Below, piece by piece: positions 28,490-38,297 of a stretch of DNA of 39,450 nucleotides. This DNA comes from Candidatus Dormiibacterota bacterium. Its GTDB lineage: Bacteria > Chloroflexota > Dormibacteria > Aeolococcales > Bog-877. The translations under genes and the position numbers were made by a program. The number at the start of each line of letters is the position of its first letter. The stretch's first letter is position 1. The notes beneath the pieces are model-generated. The model did not search any database. It saw only the letters and a list, made by a program, of their open reading frames with translations, and was not told the DNA's origin. The stretch spans positions 1 through 39,450 of the forward strand of contig DAHUZI010000126.1 of assembly GCA_027306595.1 (NCBI GenBank). Reading direction: 5' to 3'.

Positions 28490-30190
28490 ATGGAGCCGGT
28501 GGCGGTCGCGGTGACAGACCTCGACGGCACCGTCCACCGGGCGAGGTGGCGCGGCGGCCCCGAGCAGCGCTGCGGCCCGTGGACGGTGCTGGCCCGGATC
28601 AGCGCCGACGTCAACGGCGGTCGGCTCGAGTGGGGGCTCGTGGCGGCCCGACCCCGGCGCGCCGAACGGGTCTCGGTCCGTCTCGCGGGTCACCAGCTCG
28701 GCGCTCGAACCGTGCACCGGGAGGGTTGGCAGTCCTGGTCGCCGACCGGCCCCCGGCTCGAGCGGCGCCCGGCGCGCTGCCCGGCCTGGGCGGCCCGCTC
28801 GATCGACGGGGGCGCAGCCCGGCCGCGGGGATGGTCGGAGTCGGTGGCGGTGGTCGGCGGCCCGGACGGGGCGGTAGCGGTCGGCTTCCTCTCGGCCGCG
28901 CGGGCCTTCGGGCGGATCGGCCCCGCCTCCCCAGCGGGCTGGGGCCTCGCGTGCCGGGCGGAGCTGGACGGGATCGCCGTCGGGCCGTCCCCGCGTCCGC
29001 TGGACGCGCTCGGCTGGACGAGGGGCGAAACTGTCGGGGCAGCCCTTGCCGCCTACGCCGACGCCGTCGCGCGCGAGGCAGGGGCCCGCGCGCAGGCGCC
29101 CGCGGTCACCGGGTGGTGCTCCTGGTACGCGCACGGCCCCGACGTCACGGCCGGGCTCATCCGGCGGACGGTGGGGGTCCTTCAGGACTGGCGCGACTGC
29201 CTGCGGATCCTCCAGCTCGACGACGGGATCCAGGCCGCCGTGGGCGACTGGCTGGAGACCGGCGCGCAGGTCGGCGCCCCACTACCAGCCCTGCTGGAGC
29301 TGATCCGGGCCGGGGGATTCACCCCGGGGCTCTGGCTCGCGCCCTTCGCGGCCGCCAGACACTCCCGGCTCGCGCGCGAGCACCCGACCTGGCTGCTGCG
29401 GGGGCGAACCGGTGCCCCGGCGGTCTGCATGCCCTGGATGGATGACGCGGCCGCGCTCGACCTGTCCCAGCCGGCCGCCGTGGAGCACGTTCGCCTGACC
29501 GCGGCGCGGCTGCGAACGCTGGGGGCAGGCTACGTCAAGGCCGACTTCTGCTTCGCGGGCGCGGTGGCGGGGCGTCGCAACCCCGCCTGGACCCGGGCGG
29601 CGGCCCTGCGAGCTGGCCTCGAGGCCCTCCGCGCCGGACTGGGCCACGACGTCCACCTGGCGGTCTGCGGCTGCCCCTGGCTGACGGCAGTCGGGGTGGC
29701 CGACAGCTGCCGGGTGGCCGCCGACGTCGATCGCCGCTGGCGACCGCGGGGCGACCGGACCGTCCCCGTCCCGCAAGGAGGCTCGGCCCCCGCGGCGCGA
29801 AACGCCGTCGTCGGGAGCCTCCGCCGGGCGTGGATGCACCGTCGGCTGTGGGCGAACGACCCCGACTGCTGGCTGCGGGCCGGGCTCCCGGCCCCGGTCC
29901 GCGACACCCTCGGCGAGGTGGCGGCAACCGCCGGCGCGGTCCTCATGCTCTCCGACCCGGCGGAGCGGCTTGCCGACGCGGATCACGAGGCCACCCTGGG
30001 GACGCTGGCGCGCCTGGCCCGGTTGGACGGCCCCCTCGTCCCTGCGTGGGGGACGGCGGGGGGCCACCTGCGCTTCCAGCGCACCGGAGGGGGCGGGGCG
30101 TTGGCGCTGACGGTCGATCTCCGAAGGGGCGGCTCGCGGGTCGAGGGTGCCCAGGGCCAGGCCGGGCCGCCGGGCGGTGGGCGCGGCTGA
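28490..30190 (+). CDS. GH36-like alpha-galactosidase (melibiase superfamily)
   Basis: The protein is 566 residues from ATG 28490, which has a purine-rich ribosome binding site. The track ORF starts 170 codons earlier, inside the divergent dehydrogenase region. An N-terminal beta-sandwich contains REGWQSWSPTGPRLERRP, the typical GH36 N-domain signature. The barrel follows with TGWCSWYAHGPDVT, LQLDDGIQAAVGDW and PGLWLAPFAA. The likely nucleophile is D352 in AGYVKADFCFAG and the acid/base D412 in ADSCRVAADVDRRW. A short C-terminal beta domain ends the protein. There is no signal peptide, so it acts in the cytoplasm on alpha-galactosides or related sugars. It is shorter than the 700-residue bacterial GH36 enzymes, and substrate specificity is open. 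Confidence 0.86.
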   Translation: MEPVAVAVTDLDGTVHRARWRGGPEQRCGPWTVLARISADVNGGRLEWGLVAARPRRAERVSVRLAGHQLGARTVHREGWQSWSPTGPRLERRPARCPAWAARSIDGGAARPRGWSESVAVVGGPDGAVAVGFLSAARAFGRIGPASPAGWGLACRAELDGIAVGPSPRPLDALGWTRGETVGAALAAYADAVAREAGARAQAPAVTGWCSWYAHGPDVTAGLIRRTVGVLQDWRDCLRILQLDDGIQAAVGDWLETGAQVGAPLPALLELIRAGGFTPGLWLAPFAAARHSRLAREHPTWLLRGRTGAPAVCMPWMDDAAALDLSQPAAVEHVRLTAARLRTLGAGYVKADFCFAGAVAGRRNPAWTRAAALRAGLEALRAGLGHDVHLAVCGCPWLTAVGVADSCRVAADVDRRWRPRGDRTVPVPQGGSAPAARNAVVGSLRRAWMHRRLWANDPDCWLRAGLPAPVRDTLGEVAATAGAVLMLSDPAERLADADHEATLGTLARLARLDGPLVPAWGTAGGHLRFQRTGGGGALALTVDLRRGGSRVEGAQGQAGPPGGGRG

Positions 30191-30266
30191 AGGGTCCGAC
30201 GCCCGCGAAGGGGCTGCGACGGGATCGTTTTGGCCGGGGGGCGGGGGGGAGACTACCCTGTCCAGC

Positions 30267-30785
30267 GTGGACTACGCCGCTTGGCCCACGGCGTTCCGTG
30301 GGCTCCTCCAGGAGGGGGAGGTGGTGGTCGCGGCCGCCGCCGTTCGGATCACCGGCACCGCCTCGAACTCGCTGGCCTGGGGCCGGCCGGCGGGCGGGCC
30401 GGCCCGCGGAATCGTCGACCCCTGCGAGCGGGATGCCCGCGAGGGCACCGCCGGCACCCTGGCCGCAGCGTACCCGAGCTGCCGGGGACTCCCGGGGACC
30501 TGGCTCCTGGCGGTGACGAACCAGCGACTCGCCGTCTGGTACCCGAGCGTCGGCCCCCGCAAGGAGCTGGTCTGGTCAGTCCCCGCCAGCGCCCTCGCCG
30601 ATGCGTCGCTGGCCGGGCGCCATCACCTCCTGGTGACCACCATCCGCCTTCGCTTCACCGACGGCTCGTCGATCCGCCTGAACTGCCTGGGCCACCGCGA
30701 GTTCCTCATGCGACTGGCCGCGCACCGGGCCACCATCGGGACCTCGAGCCCGACGGCCTCCGGGCCCCACGCCGCCGCCGGCTGA
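30267..30785 (+). CDS. Hypothetical protein with a PH-like domain
   Basis: The protein is 172 residues from GTG 30267 (VDYAAWPTAFRGLLQEGE). TACCCT lies 8 nt upstream, so a leaderless mRNA is possible. The track start at 30147 lies inside the upstream gene. The C-terminal half has the alternating strand pattern of bacterial PH-like domains (WLLAVTNQRLAVWYPSVG, then ELVWSVPASALADASL and HHLLVTTIRLRFTDGSSIRL), with a closing helix HREFLMRLAAHRA. The N-terminal 80 residues are unrecognised. No catalytic motif, signal or membrane segment is seen. It lies between the alpha-galactosidase and the cobalamin locus, in the same direction as both. Confidence 0.6.
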   Translation: MDYAAWPTAFRGLLQEGEVVVAAAAVRITGTASNSLAWGRPAGGPARGIVDPCERDAREGTAGTLAAAYPSCRGLPGTWLLAVTNQRLAVWYPSVGPRKELVWSVPASALADASLAGRHHLLVTTIRLRFTDGSSIRLNCLGHREFLMRLAAHRATIGTSSPTASGPHAAAG

Positions 30786-30844: not shown

Positions 30845-30850
30845 TACCAT
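30845..30850 (+). promoter_or_regulatory. Candidate -10 element of the cobalamin-riboswitch transcript
   Basis: TACCAT lies 23 nt before the riboswitch P1 stem and continues as GGGCGGCACAACTG, resembling the alpha-galactosidase promoter region. TTCAGT (30824-30829) with a 15-nt spacer is a weak -35 candidate. Confidence 0.4.
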
Positions 30851-30872
30851 GGGCGGCACAACTGAAGAAGAG

Positions 30873-31044
30873 CCGCCCGGGCAAATGGGAATCCGGTGCA
30901 GGGCCGCCGCGAACGCCGCGACCCGATTCCGGAGCTGTCGCGCAACTGTGAGCGGGGAGCTCGGACCGAGCGCCACTGGGACCGTGGTCCCGGGAAGGCG
31001 GTCCGCCAGCTGAGAGCCGCAAGCCAGGAGACCGGCCCGGGCGG
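30873..31044 (+). ncRNA. Cobalamin (B12) riboswitch
   Basis: The conserved core is readable in order: AAATGGGAATCCGGTGCAGG, a CCGGAGCTGTCGCGCAACTG segment running into TGAGCGGGGAGC, GCCACTGGGACC, CCCGGGAAGGCGG, and the B12 box GAGAGCCGCAAGCCAGGAGA. The P1 ends pair perfectly over 10 bp (CCGCCCGGGC at 30873-30882 with GCCCGGGCGG at 31035-31044). It precedes a transcobalamin-like lipoprotein gene and an ECF transporter. When bound by adenosylcobalamin or a related form it should lower expression of that operon. Confidence 0.93.
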
Positions 31045-31071
31045 TCCGCTGCACCCCCGCGCGCAACGGGT

Positions 31072-31126
31072 GGGTCGGGCCTCCGGTGGCGGACCGCCCT
31101 CGGCGCGGGGACCACCGGGAGGACCC
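31072..31126 (+). promoter_or_regulatory. Hairpin masking the ribosome binding site downstream of the riboswitch
   Basis: CCTCCGGTGG (31080-31089) can pair with CCACCGGGAGG (31112-31122), leaving one bulged G, and the outer GGGT (31072-31075) can pair with ACCC (31123-31126). The right arm contains GGGAGGA, the ribosome binding site of the lipoprotein gene that starts at 31130. This fits a riboswitch that acts on translation initiation rather than termination, and no T-run is present. Confidence 0.55.
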
Positions 31127-31129
31127 GTC

Positions 31130-31621
31130 ATGCGCCCGAAGCTTGGTGCCAGCGCGACTCTGGCTCCCCTCGCCCTCGCCGCGGCGGCTGGACTCGCCGG
31201 CTGCGGTGGCCCCGCCCCCGGCCCCCACCGAGCCGCCAGCTGTGCCGCGGCCACGGCGGCTCACGTCACGGTTGTGGTCGAGCCCACGCGCCGGGTCGTG
31301 CTCACTCGCTGCGTCGCCATCCCCTCAGGAGGGCTGGGAGCGGTGGCCGTGATGCGCCGGAGCGGGGTCGAGATGGCGCTGCAGCACTACAGCTTCGGCG
31401 ACGCCGTCTGCCAGGTCGATCGTGTCCCCGCCGCGTACTCCCAGTGCCTGGCCTCGGGCCAGCCCTACTGGGCCCTCTTCGTCGCGCCCGCCCACGGGCG
31501 CTTCGCGCCGGCCGCCACCGGCATCTCCGGGATCCACGTCAAGGCCGGGGAGGTGCTCGGCTGGCACTACGTTCCGGCCCGGGGGCCGGCGACCGCGCCG
31601 CCGCTCCCCCGCGGCCGGTGA
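31130..31621 (+). CDS. Lipoprotein with a transcobalamin-like (DUF4430-type) domain
   Basis: The protein is 163 residues from ATG 31130, with GGGAGGA 6 nt upstream; the track start at 30896 lies in the riboswitch. The signal peptide ends in LAGC (C25), so it is lipid-anchored outside the membrane. The mature domain has the pattern VTVVVEPTRRVVLTRCVAIP, then GALGAVAV-like turns, HYSFGDAVCQVDRVP, QPYWALFVAPAHGRF, SGIHVKAGEVLGWHYVP. That order (TRCV, G, VCQID, YWAxF, GxxVxxGDxxGW) is typical of the small beta domain that resembles the C-terminal domain of transcobalamin and intrinsic factor. It likely captures cobalamin for the ECF transporter. Its TGA overlaps the GTG of ecfT. Confidence 0.78.
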   Translation: MRPKLGASATLAPLALAAAAGLAGCGGPAPGPHRAASCAAATAAHVTVVVEPTRRVVLTRCVAIPSGGLGAVAVMRRSGVEMALQHYSFGDAVCQVDRVPAAYSQCLASGQPYWALFVAPAHGRFAPAATGISGIHVKAGEVLGWHYVPARGPATAPPLPRGR

Positions 31622-32454
31622 CGGGGCGCGCGGCGCCCGACGCCCGAGCGCTGGCCCTGTGGGTGGCGGCGGTGGTCACCATCGCCCTGGCCAGCGACGA
31701 CCCCGCCGCCCGCGCCGTCTGCCTCGCCTCCGCGCTCCTGCTCCTCCTCCGCCGTCGCCGCGGCGACGCCCGGCTGCGCCCGCTGTTCACGCTGGTGGCG
31801 GTCGCGGCCGTTGCCAGCGTCGTCCTGAACACCCTCCTCAGCCACACCGGCGCCACCGTCCTGATCGGGATTCCCGGCTGGCTCCCGGGCGTCGGCGGGC
31901 CCCTCACCCTCGAAGCCGTCCTCTTCGGAGTCGACATCGCACTCGGGCTGGCCGCCTGCTGCATGGCGGCGGCGACCCTGGCTCAGCTCACGGAGCCGGA
32001 GGCGCTGGCCGGGGCGCTCCCCGGACCGCTGCGCCAGACGGGGGCCGCCCTCGGCGCGGCGCTCACCCTCGCGCCCCGGCTGGCGGCTGGGGTTCGGACC
32101 GTGCGGGAGGCGCAGGCGATGCGGGGCTGGCGCCCCCGGGGGGTGCGGTCGTGGGCGGCGGTGGTGGTGCCGGCGGTCCTGACCGCCGTCGAGGGCTCCC
32201 TCCAGCTGGCCGAGGCGATGGAGGCCCGAGGGTACGGACCGGGGCGGCGCACCCGCTACCGCCCGAGTCGGACCGGGCCAGCCGACGCCCTCCTCGGGGG
32301 CACCGGCGTGCTGGCGATCGGCCTCTTCGTCGCCGCCGTGATCGGCGGCGGCGCGCCCACCTGGTATCCCTACCCGGTCCCGACCGTCCCCCACGCCTCC
32401 CCGCTCGCGTACGCCGCGTGCGCCCTCCTGCTGCTCCCGGCCCTGATCGGATGA
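31618..32454 (+). CDS. ecfT: ECF transporter transmembrane subunit EcfT (CbiQ family)
   Basis: The protein is 278 residues from GTG 31618, which overlaps the lipoprotein stop (GTGA). The track start at 31444 lies within the lipoprotein gene. It has several membrane helices (ALWVAAVVTIALAS, LRPLFTLVAVAAVASVVLNT). The two coupling-helix motifs that contact the ATPases are present as AQAMRGWRPRG and EAMEARGYGPG, matching the Ala-Arg-Gly-type signatures of EcfT. It links the S component to ATP hydrolysis. ATG of the next gene overlaps its stop. Confidence 0.9.
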   Translation: MTGRAAPDARALALWVAAVVTIALASDDPAARAVCLASALLLLLRRRRGDARLRPLFTLVAVAAVASVVLNTLLSHTGATVLIGIPGWLPGVGGPLTLEAVLFGVDIALGLAACCMAAATLAQLTEPEALAGALPGPLRQTGAALGAALTLAPRLAAGVRTVREAQAMRGWRPRGVRSWAAVVVPAVLTAVEGSLQLAEAMEARGYGPGRRTRYRPSRTGPADALLGGTGVLAIGLFVAAVIGGGAPTWYPYPVPTVPHASPLAYAACALLLLPALIG

Positions 32455-33797
32455 CCGCCCCCGACTTCGCCGCCAGCCTGGAGCGGTTCAGCTACTGGTA
32501 CCCCGGCGGCGCCCGTGCCGCCCTCGAGGAGGTGAGCCTCGCGATCGGGGGCGGGACAATGGTCATCCGGGGCGACTCCGGCTCGGGCAAGTCCACGCTC
32601 CTGCGCACCCTCAACGGACTTGTTCCCCACTTCCATGGCGGCCGAGCCCGCGGCCGGATCACCGTTGACGGCCGCGACGCCCTCCGCACCCCGACCCGGG
32701 TGCTGGCGGGGGCGGTCGGGATGGTGTTTCAGGAGCCGGAGTCGCAGGTCGTGCTCCCCGGGGTCGCGGCCGACATCGCCTTCGGGCTCGAGAACCGGGG
32801 CCTCCCGTCCGCCACCATCGGCGCCCGGGTGGAGAGGGCGCTCGACGCCCTCGGCATCGCCCACCTGCGGGACCGGCGGGTGGCGACCCTCTCCGGCGGG
32901 GAACGGCAGCGGGTCGCCCTCGCCGGCGTCCTGGCGCTGGAGCCGAGGGCGGTGGTCCTCGACGAGCCGACCGCGCAGCTCGACGCCACCGGCGCCGGGG
33001 CGCTGGCGGCAGCGCTCCGGGCGTGCTGCGCGCGGGGGACGGCGGTGATCGTCGCGGAGCATCGGCCGGAGCGGCTCGGGCTGCGCGACGCCGCGACGGT
33101 CTGGCTCGCCGAGGGGCGGACGGGCCCGGCCGCGGCCCCCGCTTCCGGCGCCGGCCGAGGGCGTGGCGAGGGGCGGGCGGGCGGCGGGGCGATGCGGTTC
33201 GCCACCGAGGGCCTGGCGGTCGGGCACGATCGGGTCATCCTCGAGACCGGCCCCCTGGCGGCGTGCGGCGGGGAGATCGTCTGCTGCACCGGGCCCAATG
33301 GCAGCGGCAAGACCAGCCTGCTGCGGACGATCGCCGGCCTCCTCCCGCCCCAGGCCGGCACGGTGTGCCGCGCCCCCGGGCGCACCGCCTACCTGCCCCA
33401 GGACCCAGGGGCTCTGCTCCACCTGCCCACGGTCCGGGCCGAGCTGCTCCAGACCCAGCGCTGGCTCGGACGTGCGATCCCCGTCGAGCCGCTGCTCGAC
33501 GAGCTCGGCCTCGCCGAGCTGGCCGATCGCGACCCGCGCGACCTCAGCGTCGGCGAGCGCCAGCGGACCGCCCTGGCCGCCGTGCTCGCCGGCGATCCGG
33601 AGCTGGTCCTCCTCGACGAGCCCACGCGAGGAATGGACGGCCGAGCCCGGCTCGCGCTCGGCCGAGTGCTCCAGCGCCTCGCCGCCGCCGGGGTCGGGGT
33701 CGTGGTCGCGACCCACGACCCCGGGCTGATCGACGGGCTGGCGAACCGGTGGATCCGGCTCGGGGACGGGCGGGCCGAGGTGGCGGGGACGCCATGA
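32451..33797 (+). CDS. ecfA: Fused ECF transporter ATPase EcfA-EcfA'
   Basis: The protein is 448 residues with two complete ATPase domains. The first has Walker A GDSGSGKST (K48), Q-loop MVFQEPESQVVLPG, signature LSGGERQRVALAG, Walker B AVVLDEPTAQLD and H-loop VIVAEHRPE. The second has Walker A GPNGSGKTS (K287), YLPQDPGALL, signature LSVGERQRTALAA (Val in place of the second Gly), Walker B LVLLDEPTRGMD and H-loop VVVATHDPG. A Gly/Ala/Arg-rich linker near residue 230 joins them. EcfA and EcfA' are separate genes in many bacteria, while the fusion is known in some. ATG 32451 overlaps the ecfT stop, and the track start at 31422 is a run-through. Confidence 0.93.
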   Translation: MTAPDFAASLERFSYWYPGGARAALEEVSLAIGGGTMVIRGDSGSGKSTLLRTLNGLVPHFHGGRARGRITVDGRDALRTPTRVLAGAVGMVFQEPESQVVLPGVAADIAFGLENRGLPSATIGARVERALDALGIAHLRDRRVATLSGGERQRVALAGVLALEPRAVVLDEPTAQLDATGAGALAAALRACCARGTAVIVAEHRPERLGLRDAATVWLAEGRTGPAAAPASGAGRGRGEGRAGGGAMRFATEGLAVGHDRVILETGPLAACGGEIVCCTGPNGSGKTSLLRTIAGLLPPQAGTVCRAPGRTAYLPQDPGALLHLPTVRAELLQTQRWLGRAIPVEPLLDELGLAELADRDPRDLSVGERQRTALAAVLAGDPELVLLDEPTRGMDGRARLALGRVLQRLAAAGVGVVVATHDPGLIDGLANRWIRLGDGRAEVAGTP

Positions 33798-34582
33798 CCC
33801 TGGCGCTGACCTCGGTGGCGGGGCTGGCCCTGTTCCTGTGGCCGTTCACCGGTCTCGGGCTCCCCTCGGAGACCCCCGCCCTGGCGGTTGCCGGCGGTGC
33901 GATCCTCGCCCTGCTCCTCGTGGAGGCGGCCCAGCGGCGGCTGGACAGCCGTCGGCTGGCCCTTCTCGTGTCGATCAGCACCATCGACGCCGGGCTCCGG
34001 GCCGCCCTGGTCACCGGCATCGGCGGCTTCAGCCCCACCTTCCTCGGCGTCCTGTGCGGCGGCTACGCGCTGGGCCCGAGCTTCGGCTTCGCCTGCGGCG
34101 GCCTGTCGCTGCTCGTCTCGGCGGTCGTGACCGGCGGGGTCGGACCCTGGCTCCCATACCAGATGCTGGCCGCCGGCTGGGTCGGGGCCGCGGCCGGCTT
34201 GGCCGGCCGGTCCCGCCGGCGGGCACGGCCAGGCCGGGCCGACCTCGTGATCCTCGCCGCCGTCGGGGCGGTGTGCGGCCTGGGATTCGGGGTTCTCATG
34301 GACGTGTGGAATTGGACCTTCTTCCGCGCCGCGCCGCAGCTGGGCTGGAGCCCCGGCCTGGCCCCGGCGACCGCGGCGCTCCACTTTCTCCGCTACTATC
34401 TGGCGACCTCGCTCGCCTACGACAGCCTGCGGGCCGCGGGCAACATCCTGATGGTGGCGGCCGTCGGGCTGCCGGTCCTGGTCGGGCTGCGCCGGGTCGC
34501 GGCCCGCTTCAGCGTGACCCTGGAGGCGGGCACCGCGACAGCGGGCGCGGCGGGATCGAGCGGGAGCCGTCCCGAAGGTTGA
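33794..34582 (+). CDS. ECF transporter S component, predicted cobalamin/corrinoid-specific
   Basis: The protein is 262 residues from ATG 33794, overlapping the ATPase stop by 4 nt. It has about six membrane helices (LALAVAGGAILALLLVEAAQ, then LALLVSISTIDAGLRAALVT and FGFACGGLSLLVSAVVTGGV). GPWLPYQMLAAGWVGAAAGL, common to ECF substrate-binding subunits, is also present. A further region has GVLMDVWNWTFF and HFLRYYLATSLAYDSLRAAG. The Ala/Ser/Gly-rich C-terminal tail of about 25 residues is probably disordered. Specificity is inferred from the B12 riboswitch and the transcobalamin-like lipoprotein in the same operon, not from the protein itself. Confidence 0.83.
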   Translation: MTLALTSVAGLALFLWPFTGLGLPSETPALAVAGGAILALLLVEAAQRRLDSRRLALLVSISTIDAGLRAALVTGIGGFSPTFLGVLCGGYALGPSFGFACGGLSLLVSAVVTGGVGPWLPYQMLAAGWVGAAAGLAGRSRRRARPGRADLVILAAVGAVCGLGFGVLMDVWNWTFFRAAPQLGWSPGLAPATAALHFLRYYLATSLAYDSLRAAGNILMVAAVGLPVLVGLRRVAARFSVTLEAGTATAGAAGSSGSRPEG

Positions 34583-34845: not shown

Positions 34846-36495
34846 TCAGCCGAGCGCGGTTGCCAGATCCGCGTCCGGCGGGTGGACGACCCGGCCACCC
34901 AGGACGGTGAGGACGACCGTCGGCTCGGTGCTCGGGCCCGGTCGGGCCGCCAGGGGATCGCGGTCGAGCACGACCAGGTCGGCCAGCTTGCCCGGGGCGA
35001 TCGAGCCGAGCCGGTCCTCGCGGCGCAGGGCCCGGGCGGCCTCGAGCGTGTGGGCGTGGAGCGCCTCAGCCGGGGTGAGCGCCTGGTCCGCACCGATCGG
35101 ACGGCCGCCCCGCGTGCGACGCCGGATCGCGTGGGCGATGGTCTCGAGCGGGCGGTACGAGGCGACGTCGGAGTCGCTGCTGAGGACCACCCGCACCCCG
35201 GCCTGCAGCTCGTCTCGGAGCGGGATCAGGCGATCGGCGCGAGCGCCCAGCCGCCCGTGAAAGGCGTCACCCGAGTCGTGGAGGTACGTCGGCTGGTTCA
35301 CGGTCGTGAGGCCGAGGCGCGCCATCCGCTCGATCTGGTCCGGTCGCGGCCCCCCCGCATGCTCCAGGCGGTGGCGGGGGTCGGGGCGGGGGTCTGCGAC
35401 CATCGCCGTCTCGATGGCGTCGAGGACCAGGTCGATCGCCCGATCGCCCTGAGCGTGCACCCCGATCTGCCAGCCGAGCCGATGGGCGCGTCCGATCAGC
35501 GCCCGGAGCTCCTCGGGCTCCCAGTAGAGGACGCCCGGAAACTCCCCGGCGACCCCGTATGGGGCGGAGAAGGCCGCCGTGCCGCCGATGAGCGAGCCGT
35601 CGGCGTAAACCTTCAACGCCCCGATCCAGAGGATGTCGTCGCCGAACGGCCCGGCCAGGCCGAGGCGGGCGTAGCCCTCGAGCTGGTGGGAGAGGGGCAT
35701 GCAGGCGGTGCGGACGAGGAGGCGTCCCTGGCGGCGCGCCTCGCGATAGGCGGCCAGCTCGCGACGGGTCACCTGCGCGTCGCACACCGTGGTCAGGCCG
35801 ACGGCCAGGAAGGCGCGCCCCGCTCGCTCCACCGCGTCGACGAGCTCAGCCAGCGGCGCCGCGGTGTGGAAGTTCGGGCCGTGGCCCCCGATGTCGACCG
35901 CGACCGGCAGCACCAGACGCATGGCGGCGTCCTGGCACCACCCAGAGACCCGACCATCCGGATCCCGCGCGAATCGTCCGCCCTTGGGGTCGGGAGCGTG
36001 ATCGGGAACCCCTCGCCGCCGGAGCACAAACGAGTTCACGAGGACGGAGTGGCCGGAGACGTGGGAGACGGCGACCGGATGGCGCGCCGTCGCCCGGTCG
36101 AGGTCCCAGCGGGTTGGCGGCGTCGGGTCGGGAAAGCTGGCCGGATCGAAGCCAGAGGCGCGGATCCAGGCCCCGGGAGGGGTTTCCGCCGACGCCTCGG
36201 CGATCGCCGCCACCAGGGCCGCGGTCGAGCCGACGCCCGGTGCGCGCACGTCGAGCCCGGCCAGGGATTCGCCGGTCGCGAGGAAGTGGTTGTGGGCGTC
36301 GATCAGACCGGGGATGAGCGCGCAGCCGCCGAGATCGACCGTGGCCGCGCCGGGCACGGCCCGTTGGCAGGCGCCGCGGCTGCCGACGGCGACGATCCCG
36401 TCGCCACGGATCGCGACCGCCTCCGCCCGGACGGGGGCGGGCTCCATCGTGTGGATGACGCCGTTCGTGAAGATCCAGCCAGCGGGGTCCGTCAT
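34846..36495 (-). CDS. YtcJ-type metal-dependent amidohydrolase (amidohydrolase family 3)
   Basis: The protein is 549 residues from ATG 36495, with AAGGGAGAGG upstream. The track start at 37446 lies inside ureC. The fold starts with the small beta domain (GWIFTNGVIHTMEPAPVRAE), then the metal-binding HxH at H68/H70 in LIDAHNHFLATGESL. KVYADGSLIGGTAAFSAPYG, IGVHAQGDRAIDLVLDAIE and HRLEHAGGPRPDQIERM follow, with SSDSDVASYRPLETIAHAIR near the end and GKLADLVVLDRDP closing the beta domain. Members hydrolyse amide or related bonds with diverse substrates. It follows the urease-like alpha gene by 68 nt in the same direction, and may act on a linked nitrogen compound (inference). Confidence 0.9.
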   Translation of the reverse strand: MTDPAGWIFTNGVIHTMEPAPVRAEAVAIRGDGIVAVGSRGACQRAVPGAATVDLGGCALIPGLIDAHNHFLATGESLAGLDVRAPGVGSTAALVAAIAEASAETPPGAWIRASGFDPASFPDPTPPTRWDLDRATARHPVAVSHVSGHSVLVNSFVLRRRGVPDHAPDPKGGRFARDPDGRVSGWCQDAAMRLVLPVAVDIGGHGPNFHTAAPLAELVDAVERAGRAFLAVGLTTVCDAQVTRRELAAYREARRQGRLLVRTACMPLSHQLEGYARLGLAGPFGDDILWIGALKVYADGSLIGGTAAFSAPYGVAGEFPGVLYWEPEELRALIGRAHRLGWQIGVHAQGDRAIDLVLDAIETAMVADPRPDPRHRLEHAGGPRPDQIERMARLGLTTVNQPTYLHDSGDAFHGRLGARADRLIPLRDELQAGVRVVLSSDSDVASYRPLETIAHAIRRRTRGGRPIGADQALTPAEALHAHTLEAARALRREDRLGSIAPGKLADLVVLDRDPLAARPGPSTEPTVVLTVLGGRVVHPPDADLATALG

Positions 36496-36563
36496 CGCCC
36501 TCTCCCTTGGAGCGCCCGGTTCCGGTTGGGATCGCCGCGGCGCCCCGGGCGCGCCGCCGGCGG

Positions 36564-38297
36564 TCAGAGCAGCAGGTACCGCCGGCTGAGCGGAACCGCG
36601 GCGACCGGTTGCGATCGCAGGCGGCGGCCGTCGACCCGGACCGTCCCGTCGACCGGGTCGACGGGGATGCGCAGCGGGACCTGCCCGTCGACGAGATCGG
36701 GCCGGGTGCGGACGCGGGTGCCGGCCACCGCCACGAACCGCCGGCGGCTCGCCAGCCGTTCGGGCAGGCCGGCGGCGAGCGCCGCCGCCGACACGAACGT
36801 CGTCGCCAGCGACGCCGGAGCGTGCCCGACGGCCCCCCAGTGGGGACCGAAGCGACGCGGCTCGGCGCCCTCGACGGTGGCGTTCCCCTCGCCGGAGGCC
36901 GCCCACGTCGGATGGCCGGCTTTGAGCACCAGCTCGGGGCGGACGCCGAAGTGGCTCGGCCGCCAGAGGACGATGTCGGCGAGGCGTCCGGGCGCAAGCG
37001 ATCCCACCTCGTCGGCGATCCCCTGGGCCCGTGCGGGGTTGACCGTGTACTTGGCCAGGTAGTGGAGGACACGGGCGTTGTCGTCCCCGCCGGATCCGGC
37101 GGCTGCCGGTGGCCGCCCGGCGGTCCCCGGCAGCGGCCGGCTGGGGGGCCAACCGGCCCCGCTGGCGGTGCCGCGCCAGCGCTTCATCGCGTCGGCGAGC
37201 TGCCACGTCCGCCGGATGGTCTCGCCGATCCGACCCATCCCCTGGGCGTCGCTGTTGATGATCGCAATCGCCCCGAGCTCGTGGAGCGGACCCTCCGCCT
37301 CCAGCGACCCCCGGTGGACCCGCTCGCGTGCGGCCGCGACGTCCTCGGGGCTGTCGAGCGATCCCCCGTGGACCAAGACGATCATGGCGGCGTGCTCGGC
37401 CGCGGTGGCGGGACCCCAGGGGAGCGTGGGAGTCGTCGACGAGCACACGACGTTGGGCTCACCGGCGATCCCGATCAGGTCGGGGATGTGGCCGCCGCCG
37501 GCCCCCTCGACGTGGTAGGCATGGACCGCCCGTCCGGCGATGGCGGCCAGGGTCTCGGGGAGCTCGCCGGACTCGTTGAGCCCATCGGTGTGGAGGCAGA
37601 CCGCGATGTCGTGGGCGTCGGCGACCGTGAGCGCGGCGTCGATGACCTCTGGGTATGCGCCCCAGTCCTCGTGGACCTTGAGCCCGCAGGCCCCCGCCTC
37701 GATCAGGGCCTCGAGCGGCGCCCGGGCGTCGGTGCGGGCGCTCGCTTGGAGGCCGAGATTGACCGGGAGCCCCTCGAACGCCAGGTAGGTCCGCTCCATC
37801 ATCGCGGGGGGCTCCTCGAACCCGGCCGTGATGCAGGTGGTGATGCCGGCGGCGAGCGCCACCGGCACGAGGCGGGGGGTGATGAGGTGGACGTGGCTGT
37901 CGACGCCGCCGGCGGTGGCGAGGAGACCGTAGGCGTTGATCGGCACGGTGTGCGGGCCGACGACGAGGTCGACGGCGTCGGAGATGGCGGGGCTGCCGGC
38001 GCGGCCGATCCCGACGATCCGCCCGTCCTTGATGCCGAGGTTCGTCTTGACCACCCCCAGCAGCGGGTCGACCACCACCACCCCGGCGAGAAGCGCGTCC
38101 AGCTGGCTTGCGGGCGTGGCCGCGTCGTCCTGCGCCTGGCGTGAGCGCAGGTTCTTCGCATAGCCCCAGATCGGCTCGTCGCCGTACCCGAGGTGGTCGG
38201 CCTCGATTCGGATCCACAGATCCGTGTCCGCCAGCCGGAGGCGGTCGCCGGTGGTGGGTCCGTAGCGCCCGACGTACTCAGCGCGGCTGAGCCGCAT
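36564..38297 (-). CDS. ureC: Atypical urease alpha subunit (UreC-like)
   Basis: The protein is 577 residues from ATG 38297 (MRLSRAEYVGRYGPTTGDRL); the track start at 38618 is a run-through. All six nickel ligands of urease are at expected positions: H135 and H137 (DSHVH), K207 (the lysine that is carbamylated, GLKVHEDWG), H236 (CLHTDGLNE), H262 (AYHVEGAGGGH) and D350 (INSDAQGMGR). H209 is also kept. Two features differ from standard enzymes. About 11 residues of the GGGTGPA...TPGPW loop are missing (TAGFEEPPAMMER instead), and the flap CHH reads VHG, so the flap cysteine is V309 while H310 stays. An inserted Pro/Gly/Ala segment lies near residues 380-405. Urease activity is therefore uncertain. 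It overlaps ureAB by 20 nt. Confidence 0.9.
   Translation of the reverse strand: MRLSRAEYVGRYGPTTGDRLRLADTDLWIRIEADHLGYGDEPIWGYAKNLRSRQAQDDAATPASQLDALLAGVVVVDPLLGVVKTNLGIKDGRIVGIGRAGSPAISDAVDLVVGPHTVPINAYGLLATAGGVDSHVHLITPRLVPVALAAGITTCITAGFEEPPAMMERTYLAFEGLPVNLGLQASARTDARAPLEALIEAGACGLKVHEDWGAYPEVIDAALTVADAHDIAVCLHTDGLNESGELPETLAAIAGRAVHAYHVEGAGGGHIPDLIGIAGEPNVVCSSTTPTLPWGPATAAEHAAMIVLVHGGSLDSPEDVAAARERVHRGSLEAEGPLHELGAIAIINSDAQGMGRIGETIRRTWQLADAMKRWRGTASGAGWPPSRPLPGTAGRPPAAAGSGGDDNARVLHYLAKYTVNPARAQGIADEVGSLAPGRLADIVLWRPSHFGVRPELVLKAGHPTWAASGEGNATVEGAEPRRFGPHWGAVGHAPASLATTFVSAAALAAGLPERLASRRRFVAVAGTRVRTRPDLVDGQVPLRIPVDPVDGTVRVDGRRLRSQPVAAVPLSRRYLLL

Follow-up and report, generated by a model that had tools for sequence, protein, structure and literature searches.

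A riboswitch-led ECF operon with a transcobalamin-β-like lipoprotein points to a widespread route of B12 capture in bacteria

For many B12-dependent bacteria, the B12 importers have yet to be identified. In this work, we analysed a 39,450-nt stretch of DNA (the window) from a soil bacterium, Candidatus Dormiibacterota, and describe an operon in which a cobalamin riboswitch is followed by the genes of a lipoprotein, the energy-coupling factor (ECF) transporter subunit EcfT, a fused EcfA-EcfA′ and an S component. This operon is likely to encode a B12-repressed corrinoid importer, in which the ECF transporter is served by a surface-anchored, transcobalamin-β-like capture lipoprotein that would bind the corrinoid and hand it on. 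The computational evidence comprises the riboswitch, the gene identities, a predicted fold, synteny and genome context. Together with its relatives, the gene set points to a widespread and largely undescribed route of B12 capture, and it provides a concrete, testable candidate for a B12 importer across Dormiibacterota, Chloroflexota and Actinomycetota, the SCO2321/SCO2322 clusters included. The operon in the window is probably a reduced, β-only form of a B12 capture device that resembles a split transcobalamin and is coupled to an ECF importer. The features of the operon are as follows.

30862..31054, + strand: cobalamin riboswitch aptamer RF00174, full length (cmscan, 83.7 bits, E = 2.4e-19)
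31080..31122, + strand: probable expression platform, a Shine–Dalgarno hairpin (arm conservation and covariation in nine sequences of the window's family, f1)
31130..31621, + strand: lipoprotein, 163 aa, with lipobox and transcobalamin-β-like domain (AlphaFold2, Foldseek, 46-sequence alignment)
31618..32454, + strand: EcfT, transmembrane coupling subunit, 278 aa, GTG start (PF02361 CbiQ, E = 1.5e-8; synteny)
32451..33797, + strand: EcfA-EcfA′, two ECF ATPases in one chain, 448 aa (two ABC_tran stretches, E = 8.3e-50)
33794..34582, + strand: ECF S component, 262 aa (PF12822, E = 1.1e-7; profile against the PDB; AlphaFold2)

The operon and its riboswitch

The riboswitch claimed in the initial annotation is present at full length: the RF00174 match spans model positions 1–189 of 189, and its 83.7 bits compare with a curated cut-off of 31.5. 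The window has no other Rfam match, and no second cobalamin riboswitch was found in the genome assembly, which comprises 2.6 Mb and is 76% complete. The aptamer ends 76 nt before the lipoprotein gene. The four genes, at 31130–34582, overlap by 4 nt at all three junctions (GTGA, ATGA and ATGA), as had been described, and the identities given to EcfT, the fused ATPases and the S component were borne out by PF02361, two ABC_tran stretches and PF12822, respectively. This combination in one overlapping operon is that of a group I ECF transporter. EcfT homologues are syntenic in most loci; EcfA-EcfA′ scores above the cut-off of TIGR01166 (cbiO), and the ECF_ATPase models score below theirs.

The CbiQ and CbiO names annotated for EcfT and the ATPases would suit a CbiMNQO-type cobalt importer, a type that is commonly under B12 riboswitches too. 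The S component argues otherwise, as it matches PF12822 and not CbiM, and no match to CbiM (PF01891) was found among its 42 homologues. The class of the host also has almost no corrin-ring synthesis in which cobalt could be used, and we regard a cobalt importer as highly improbable.

Downstream of the aptamer, positions 31080–31090 (the anti-Shine–Dalgarno arm) can pair with 31111–31122, a segment that contains the Shine–Dalgarno sequence of the lipoprotein gene (GGGAGG, 31117–31122). Across nine distinct f1 leaders, 97.8% of the cells in these arms are paired, against 35–65% when the arms are slid, and two pairs have changed on both sides. Because the set is small and the arms were excised by hand, we treat the hairpin as suggestive; and since the minimum free energy of the leader, folded as a single sequence, is no more stable than that of shuffles, the claim rests on covariation in this small set. 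Sequestration of the Shine–Dalgarno sequence would fit translational repression by B12, the direction of regulation that we propose. A scan for sigma-70 promoters in the GC-rich operon region found none.

Conservation and the need for B12

We surveyed 101 genomes of the window's class, in which the S component occurs in 73 and the lipoprotein in 72, with both present in 66 and neither in 22 (Fisher 4e-11, without phylogenetic correction). A same-strand cobalamin riboswitch occurs less than 3 kb 5′ of the lipoprotein gene, or of the barrel gene described below, in 59 of the 72 lipoprotein-bearing genomes; about 0.0006 riboswitches upstream of the lipoprotein would be expected per genome by chance. 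Several of the remaining genomes have the locus close to contig ends. The search for related S loci gave 324, the closest public ones being metagenome-assembled genomes of Candidatus Dormiibacterota, and the best 80 of the 324 are mostly records labelled Dormiibacterota, Chloroflexi or Actinomycetes/Acidimicrobiales. The order riboswitch, lipoprotein, EcfT, EcfAA′ and S component is kept in most loci read, and the gene set recurs in three phyla, Dormiibacterota, Chloroflexota and Actinomycetota, with riboswitch-led loci in the latter two as well.

The host is apparently unable to make B12. CbiC, a marker of corrin-ring synthesis, was not found in the window genome or in 97 of the 101 class genomes, and three of the four genomes that bear it are without the operon. 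The window genome encodes a cobalamin adenosyltransferase, a mutase-type subunit that binds B12 and a single PF01497 (BtuF-like) protein, whose gene has no permease or BtuCD adjoining. Corrinoid import is the simplest reading of this gene content, and the connection with B12 drawn in the initial annotation gains support from the presence of riboswitch-led gene sets in genomes without corrin synthesis.

The S component

The PF12822 match of the S component lies above the gathering score, and no other PF12822 gene was found in the window assembly. When a profile built from its 42 homologues was compared with the PDB, the best match was 6fnp_A, which is CbrT (E = 6.2e-5), followed by FolT at 0.013. 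Among solved proteins, the sequence profile is therefore nearest to a B12 transporter and not to another vitamin family, in agreement with the corrinoid substrate initially proposed. None of the NCBIfam S subfamilies claims the protein, and its AlphaFold2 model resembles S-component structures. The model also shows two extra N-terminal helices (window 33794–34000) before the usual core, which are apparently missing in proteins of the size of CbrT.

The substrate could also be a B12 precursor or fragment, such as cobinamide, α-ribazole or dimethylbenzimidazole, instead of whole cobalamin. CbrT transports cobalamin and cobinamide, an example of a B12 importer that also takes the latter (PMC5997447), and importers of the dimethylbenzimidazole type (CblTS) have been described (PMC8123684). 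A transcobalamin-β fold together with an S component like CbrT would be expected for whole corrinoids, however, and not for small base moieties, which makes a precursor importer improbable, if less so than a cobalt importer.

The lipoprotein

The signal of the lipoprotein carries the lipobox LAGC with Cys25, and the transcobalamin-β-like domain spans approximately residues 44–150. C61, C94, C106 and W114 are invariant in an alignment of 46 sequences, and the AlphaFold2 model based on it has a β-rich core with a pLDDT of about 95. The best PDB match of this model in Foldseek is 5no0, the human transcobalamin β domain (E = 8.7e-5, probability 1.00, TM 0.73 by target length). By itself, the human β domain binds both cobalamin and cobinamide, and its assembly with a separately produced α domain requires cobalamin (PMC5599065).

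The initial annotation had assigned a DUF4430/transcobalamin-C-like domain, of which the transcobalamin part stands by predicted fold and the DUF4430 part does not. The lipoprotein has no Pfam or NCBIfam family match at all, and DUF4430 (PF14478) matches neither it (E up to 1) nor its 45 relatives (E up to 0.1); with Pfam negative across all 46 sequences, we rejected this label. Homology in sequence to transcobalamin was rejected as well, given that hhalign aligns the lipoprotein with the human β domain at a probability of only 2.6% (P = 0.018) and that the lipoprotein had no PDB profile match. This weak alignment spans a single block, YW...GIS...GD, and sets the invariant W114 on the human FW motif.

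In three loci (L094, L131 and L137), two tandem lipoprotein genes lie 5′ of EcfT, which suggests more than one capture protein per transporter.

Proposed mechanism

In the mechanism we envisage, low cellular B12 would lead the riboswitch to leave the ribosome-binding site of the lipoprotein gene free, and high B12 would have it sequestered. Outside the membrane, the lipid-anchored lipoprotein would catch a corrinoid, cobalamin or another, and pass it to the S component, after which EcfT and the fused ATPases would power its release into the cytoplasm, where adenosyltransferase and B12 enzymes would use it.

Several observations weigh against this mechanism. To our knowledge, ECF importers, ECF-CbrT included, need no external protein to bind their substrates with nanomolar affinity. 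The transcobalamin-like nature of the lipoprotein is visible in the fold only: with no sequence homology to transcobalamin or DUF4430, the link rests on a predicted structure. The second fold match of the lipoprotein, ahead of others that are far weaker, is 3u7z from Ruminococcus gnavus, which is annotated as a putative metal-binding protein. For the S component, FolT, PanT and ThiT lead the Foldseek search and the matches shown do not include CbrT, so that the S-component fold is confirmed but the substrate is not fixed by the fold; two A2 members of the S homologues also weakly match the folate S model. Furthermore, absences from a 76%-complete assembly are soft, although the relatives agree on the corrin genes.

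An alternative that takes up some of these points is that the ECF transporter imports B12 and the lipoprotein has no part in delivery, acting as a stabiliser of the complex, a metal scavenger or a surface receptor for a B12-loaded partner. The annotation of 3u7z is in keeping with this, as are a few loci (L081 and L199) in which a riboswitch heads EcfT-A-S without the lipoprotein; locally, the transporter seems able to work in its absence. The genome of L081 (G065) nevertheless holds the lipoprotein elsewhere: at L080, a second riboswitch heads the lipoprotein gene and an adjoining second S gene, without EcfT or EcfA, a pairing with S alone that supports a capture-and-hand-off role but does not prove it. 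The genome of L199 has the same two riboswitch coordinates as genome G073, where two loci are riboswitch-led and one includes the lipoprotein. In the window's family the lipoprotein is the first gene after the riboswitch, and its top fold match is a cobalamin-binding domain. On balance, we consider a lipoprotein without a delivery role unlikely, and corrinoid capture with hand-off to the S component remains our preferred interpretation.

A barrel partner in related operons

Many Chloroflexota loci, and those of the sister families f2 and f3, have an extra gene between the riboswitch and the lipoprotein gene, which encodes a barrel protein with α/α-toroid repeats and a C-terminal membrane helix. 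This partner, the wide spread of the gene set and its link to the SCO2321 and SCO2322 families go beyond the initial annotation. Three of four barrels tested match the NCBIfam family SCO2321_fam (NF053823; E = 1e-21 to 3e-47), and 33 of 46 lipoprotein relatives weakly match SCO2322_fam (NF040672; E up to 0.1, best 3.9e-7). One relative compared with SCO2322_fam reached E = 2.9e-7 and 31 bits, against a cut-off of 85, and the window lipoprotein itself has no match to this family. On the basis of these profile matches, the barrel and the β protein are distant relatives of SCO2321 and SCO2322, respectively.

SCO2322_fam is present in 38 of 247 sampled Actinomycetota genomes. All 20 Actinomycetota regions fetched (L235–L254) have the β protein, EcfT, EcfA and S component in the same order, with the barrel detected in most, and a cobalamin riboswitch lies directly 5′ of the barrel in seven of them (L238, L244, L245, L247, L248, L249 and L251). 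The barrels of two Actinomycetota loci exceed the SCO2321_fam cut-off. Given the shared gene order and the riboswitches, both families appear to belong to B12 uptake, which suggests a function for two NCBI families to which none is assigned in the open literature searched.

Neither the window operon nor families f1 (the window's) and f4 include the barrel gene, which identifies the window as a β-only version. A barrel search of the window genome gave matches only within a cyclase-like 744-aa open reading frame (ORF), and candidates from f1 genomes, found in cyclase-like ORFs at E = 1e-6 to 1e-10, were rejected as B12 barrels. The PDB sequence matches of the barrel are squalene cyclases, and it shows no sequence similarity to the transcobalamin α domain, which has an α/α-toroid fold.

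We infer a role for the barrel in B12 binding. In the sister lineages, the membrane-anchored barrel encoded upstream would probably complete a clamp that resembles a split transcobalamin, and the window's lineage appears to do with the β half alone. By extension, the SCO2321/SCO2322 proteins and their relatives in Dormiibacterota and Chloroflexota could constitute a bacterial split transcobalamin, in which two anchored proteins close round a corrinoid outside the membrane and hand it to the S component of an ECF importer, a proposal that we find plausible but still somewhat short of probable. If it holds, the ECF importer would possess an extracytoplasmic substrate-binding device, and the fused animal carriers would be either relatives of, or convergent with, the bacterial pair.

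Two further variations were seen among these proteins. At L067:1062-3308 and L100:910-3321, two tandem α/α-barrel units lie in one chain of about 750–800 aa. In the large Actinomycetota genomes (8–10 Mb) of L236–L239, the β protein seems circularly permuted, with its YW...DGD..GF block preceding the VALV.DFG...LCAI.GYP block; the profile score was no higher once the two halves had been swapped, and the permutation is thus unproven.

Relation to known B12 systems

The closest solved system by S profile is the ECF-CbrT importer of Lactobacillus delbrueckii (6FNP; PMC5997447). Its 182-aa CbrT works through a shared group II ECF module without any external binding protein, and the CbrT gene accompanies nrdJ and pduO. 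The window differs in its dedicated operon, fused ATPases, longer S component and lipoprotein. Its ECF half may fall within earlier predictions of CbrUVT, an ECF set for B12 uptake used in genome reconstructions (PMC6593275, PMC8123684), and the parts of these papers that were searched describe no transcobalamin-like partner. In sampled Actinomycetota, the SCO2321/SCO2322 clusters run barrel, β protein, EcfT, EcfA and S component, the same order as in the barrel-bearing relatives and one from which the window lacks the barrel.

BtuG of Bacteroides, also a lipoprotein anchored at the surface, captures B12 on behalf of an importer, but it works with the outer-membrane BtuB in a Gram-negative setting, and no ECF link is mentioned (PMC6143338). 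Human transcobalamin, intrinsic factor and haptocorrin resemble the bacterial proteins in that the β domain 5no0 matches the predicted lipoprotein fold, to which the relatives add a separate α/α-toroid protein. Unlike these carriers, the bacterial pair consists of two membrane-anchored polypeptides coupled to an ABC-type importer, and neither half is significantly similar to them in sequence. Neither a transcobalamin-like partner of an ECF transporter nor its split form was found in the open literature searched. The gene set would exemplify an ECF importer that is assisted by a capture protein outside the membrane, and a transcobalamin-like fold beside a B12 importer in bacteria bears on the origin of the animal B12 carriers.

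Neighbouring genes

A 212-aa ORF immediately 5′ of the riboswitch (window 30147–30785) has no Pfam or NCBIfam match and a homologue in a same-genus genome only (63%). Further upstream of the operon, window 28601–30190 encodes a PF02065 melibiase-type α-galactosidase, and on the other side a PF07969 amidohydrolase gene (E = 5e-92) lies at window 34846–36801 on the minus strand, convergent with the operon.

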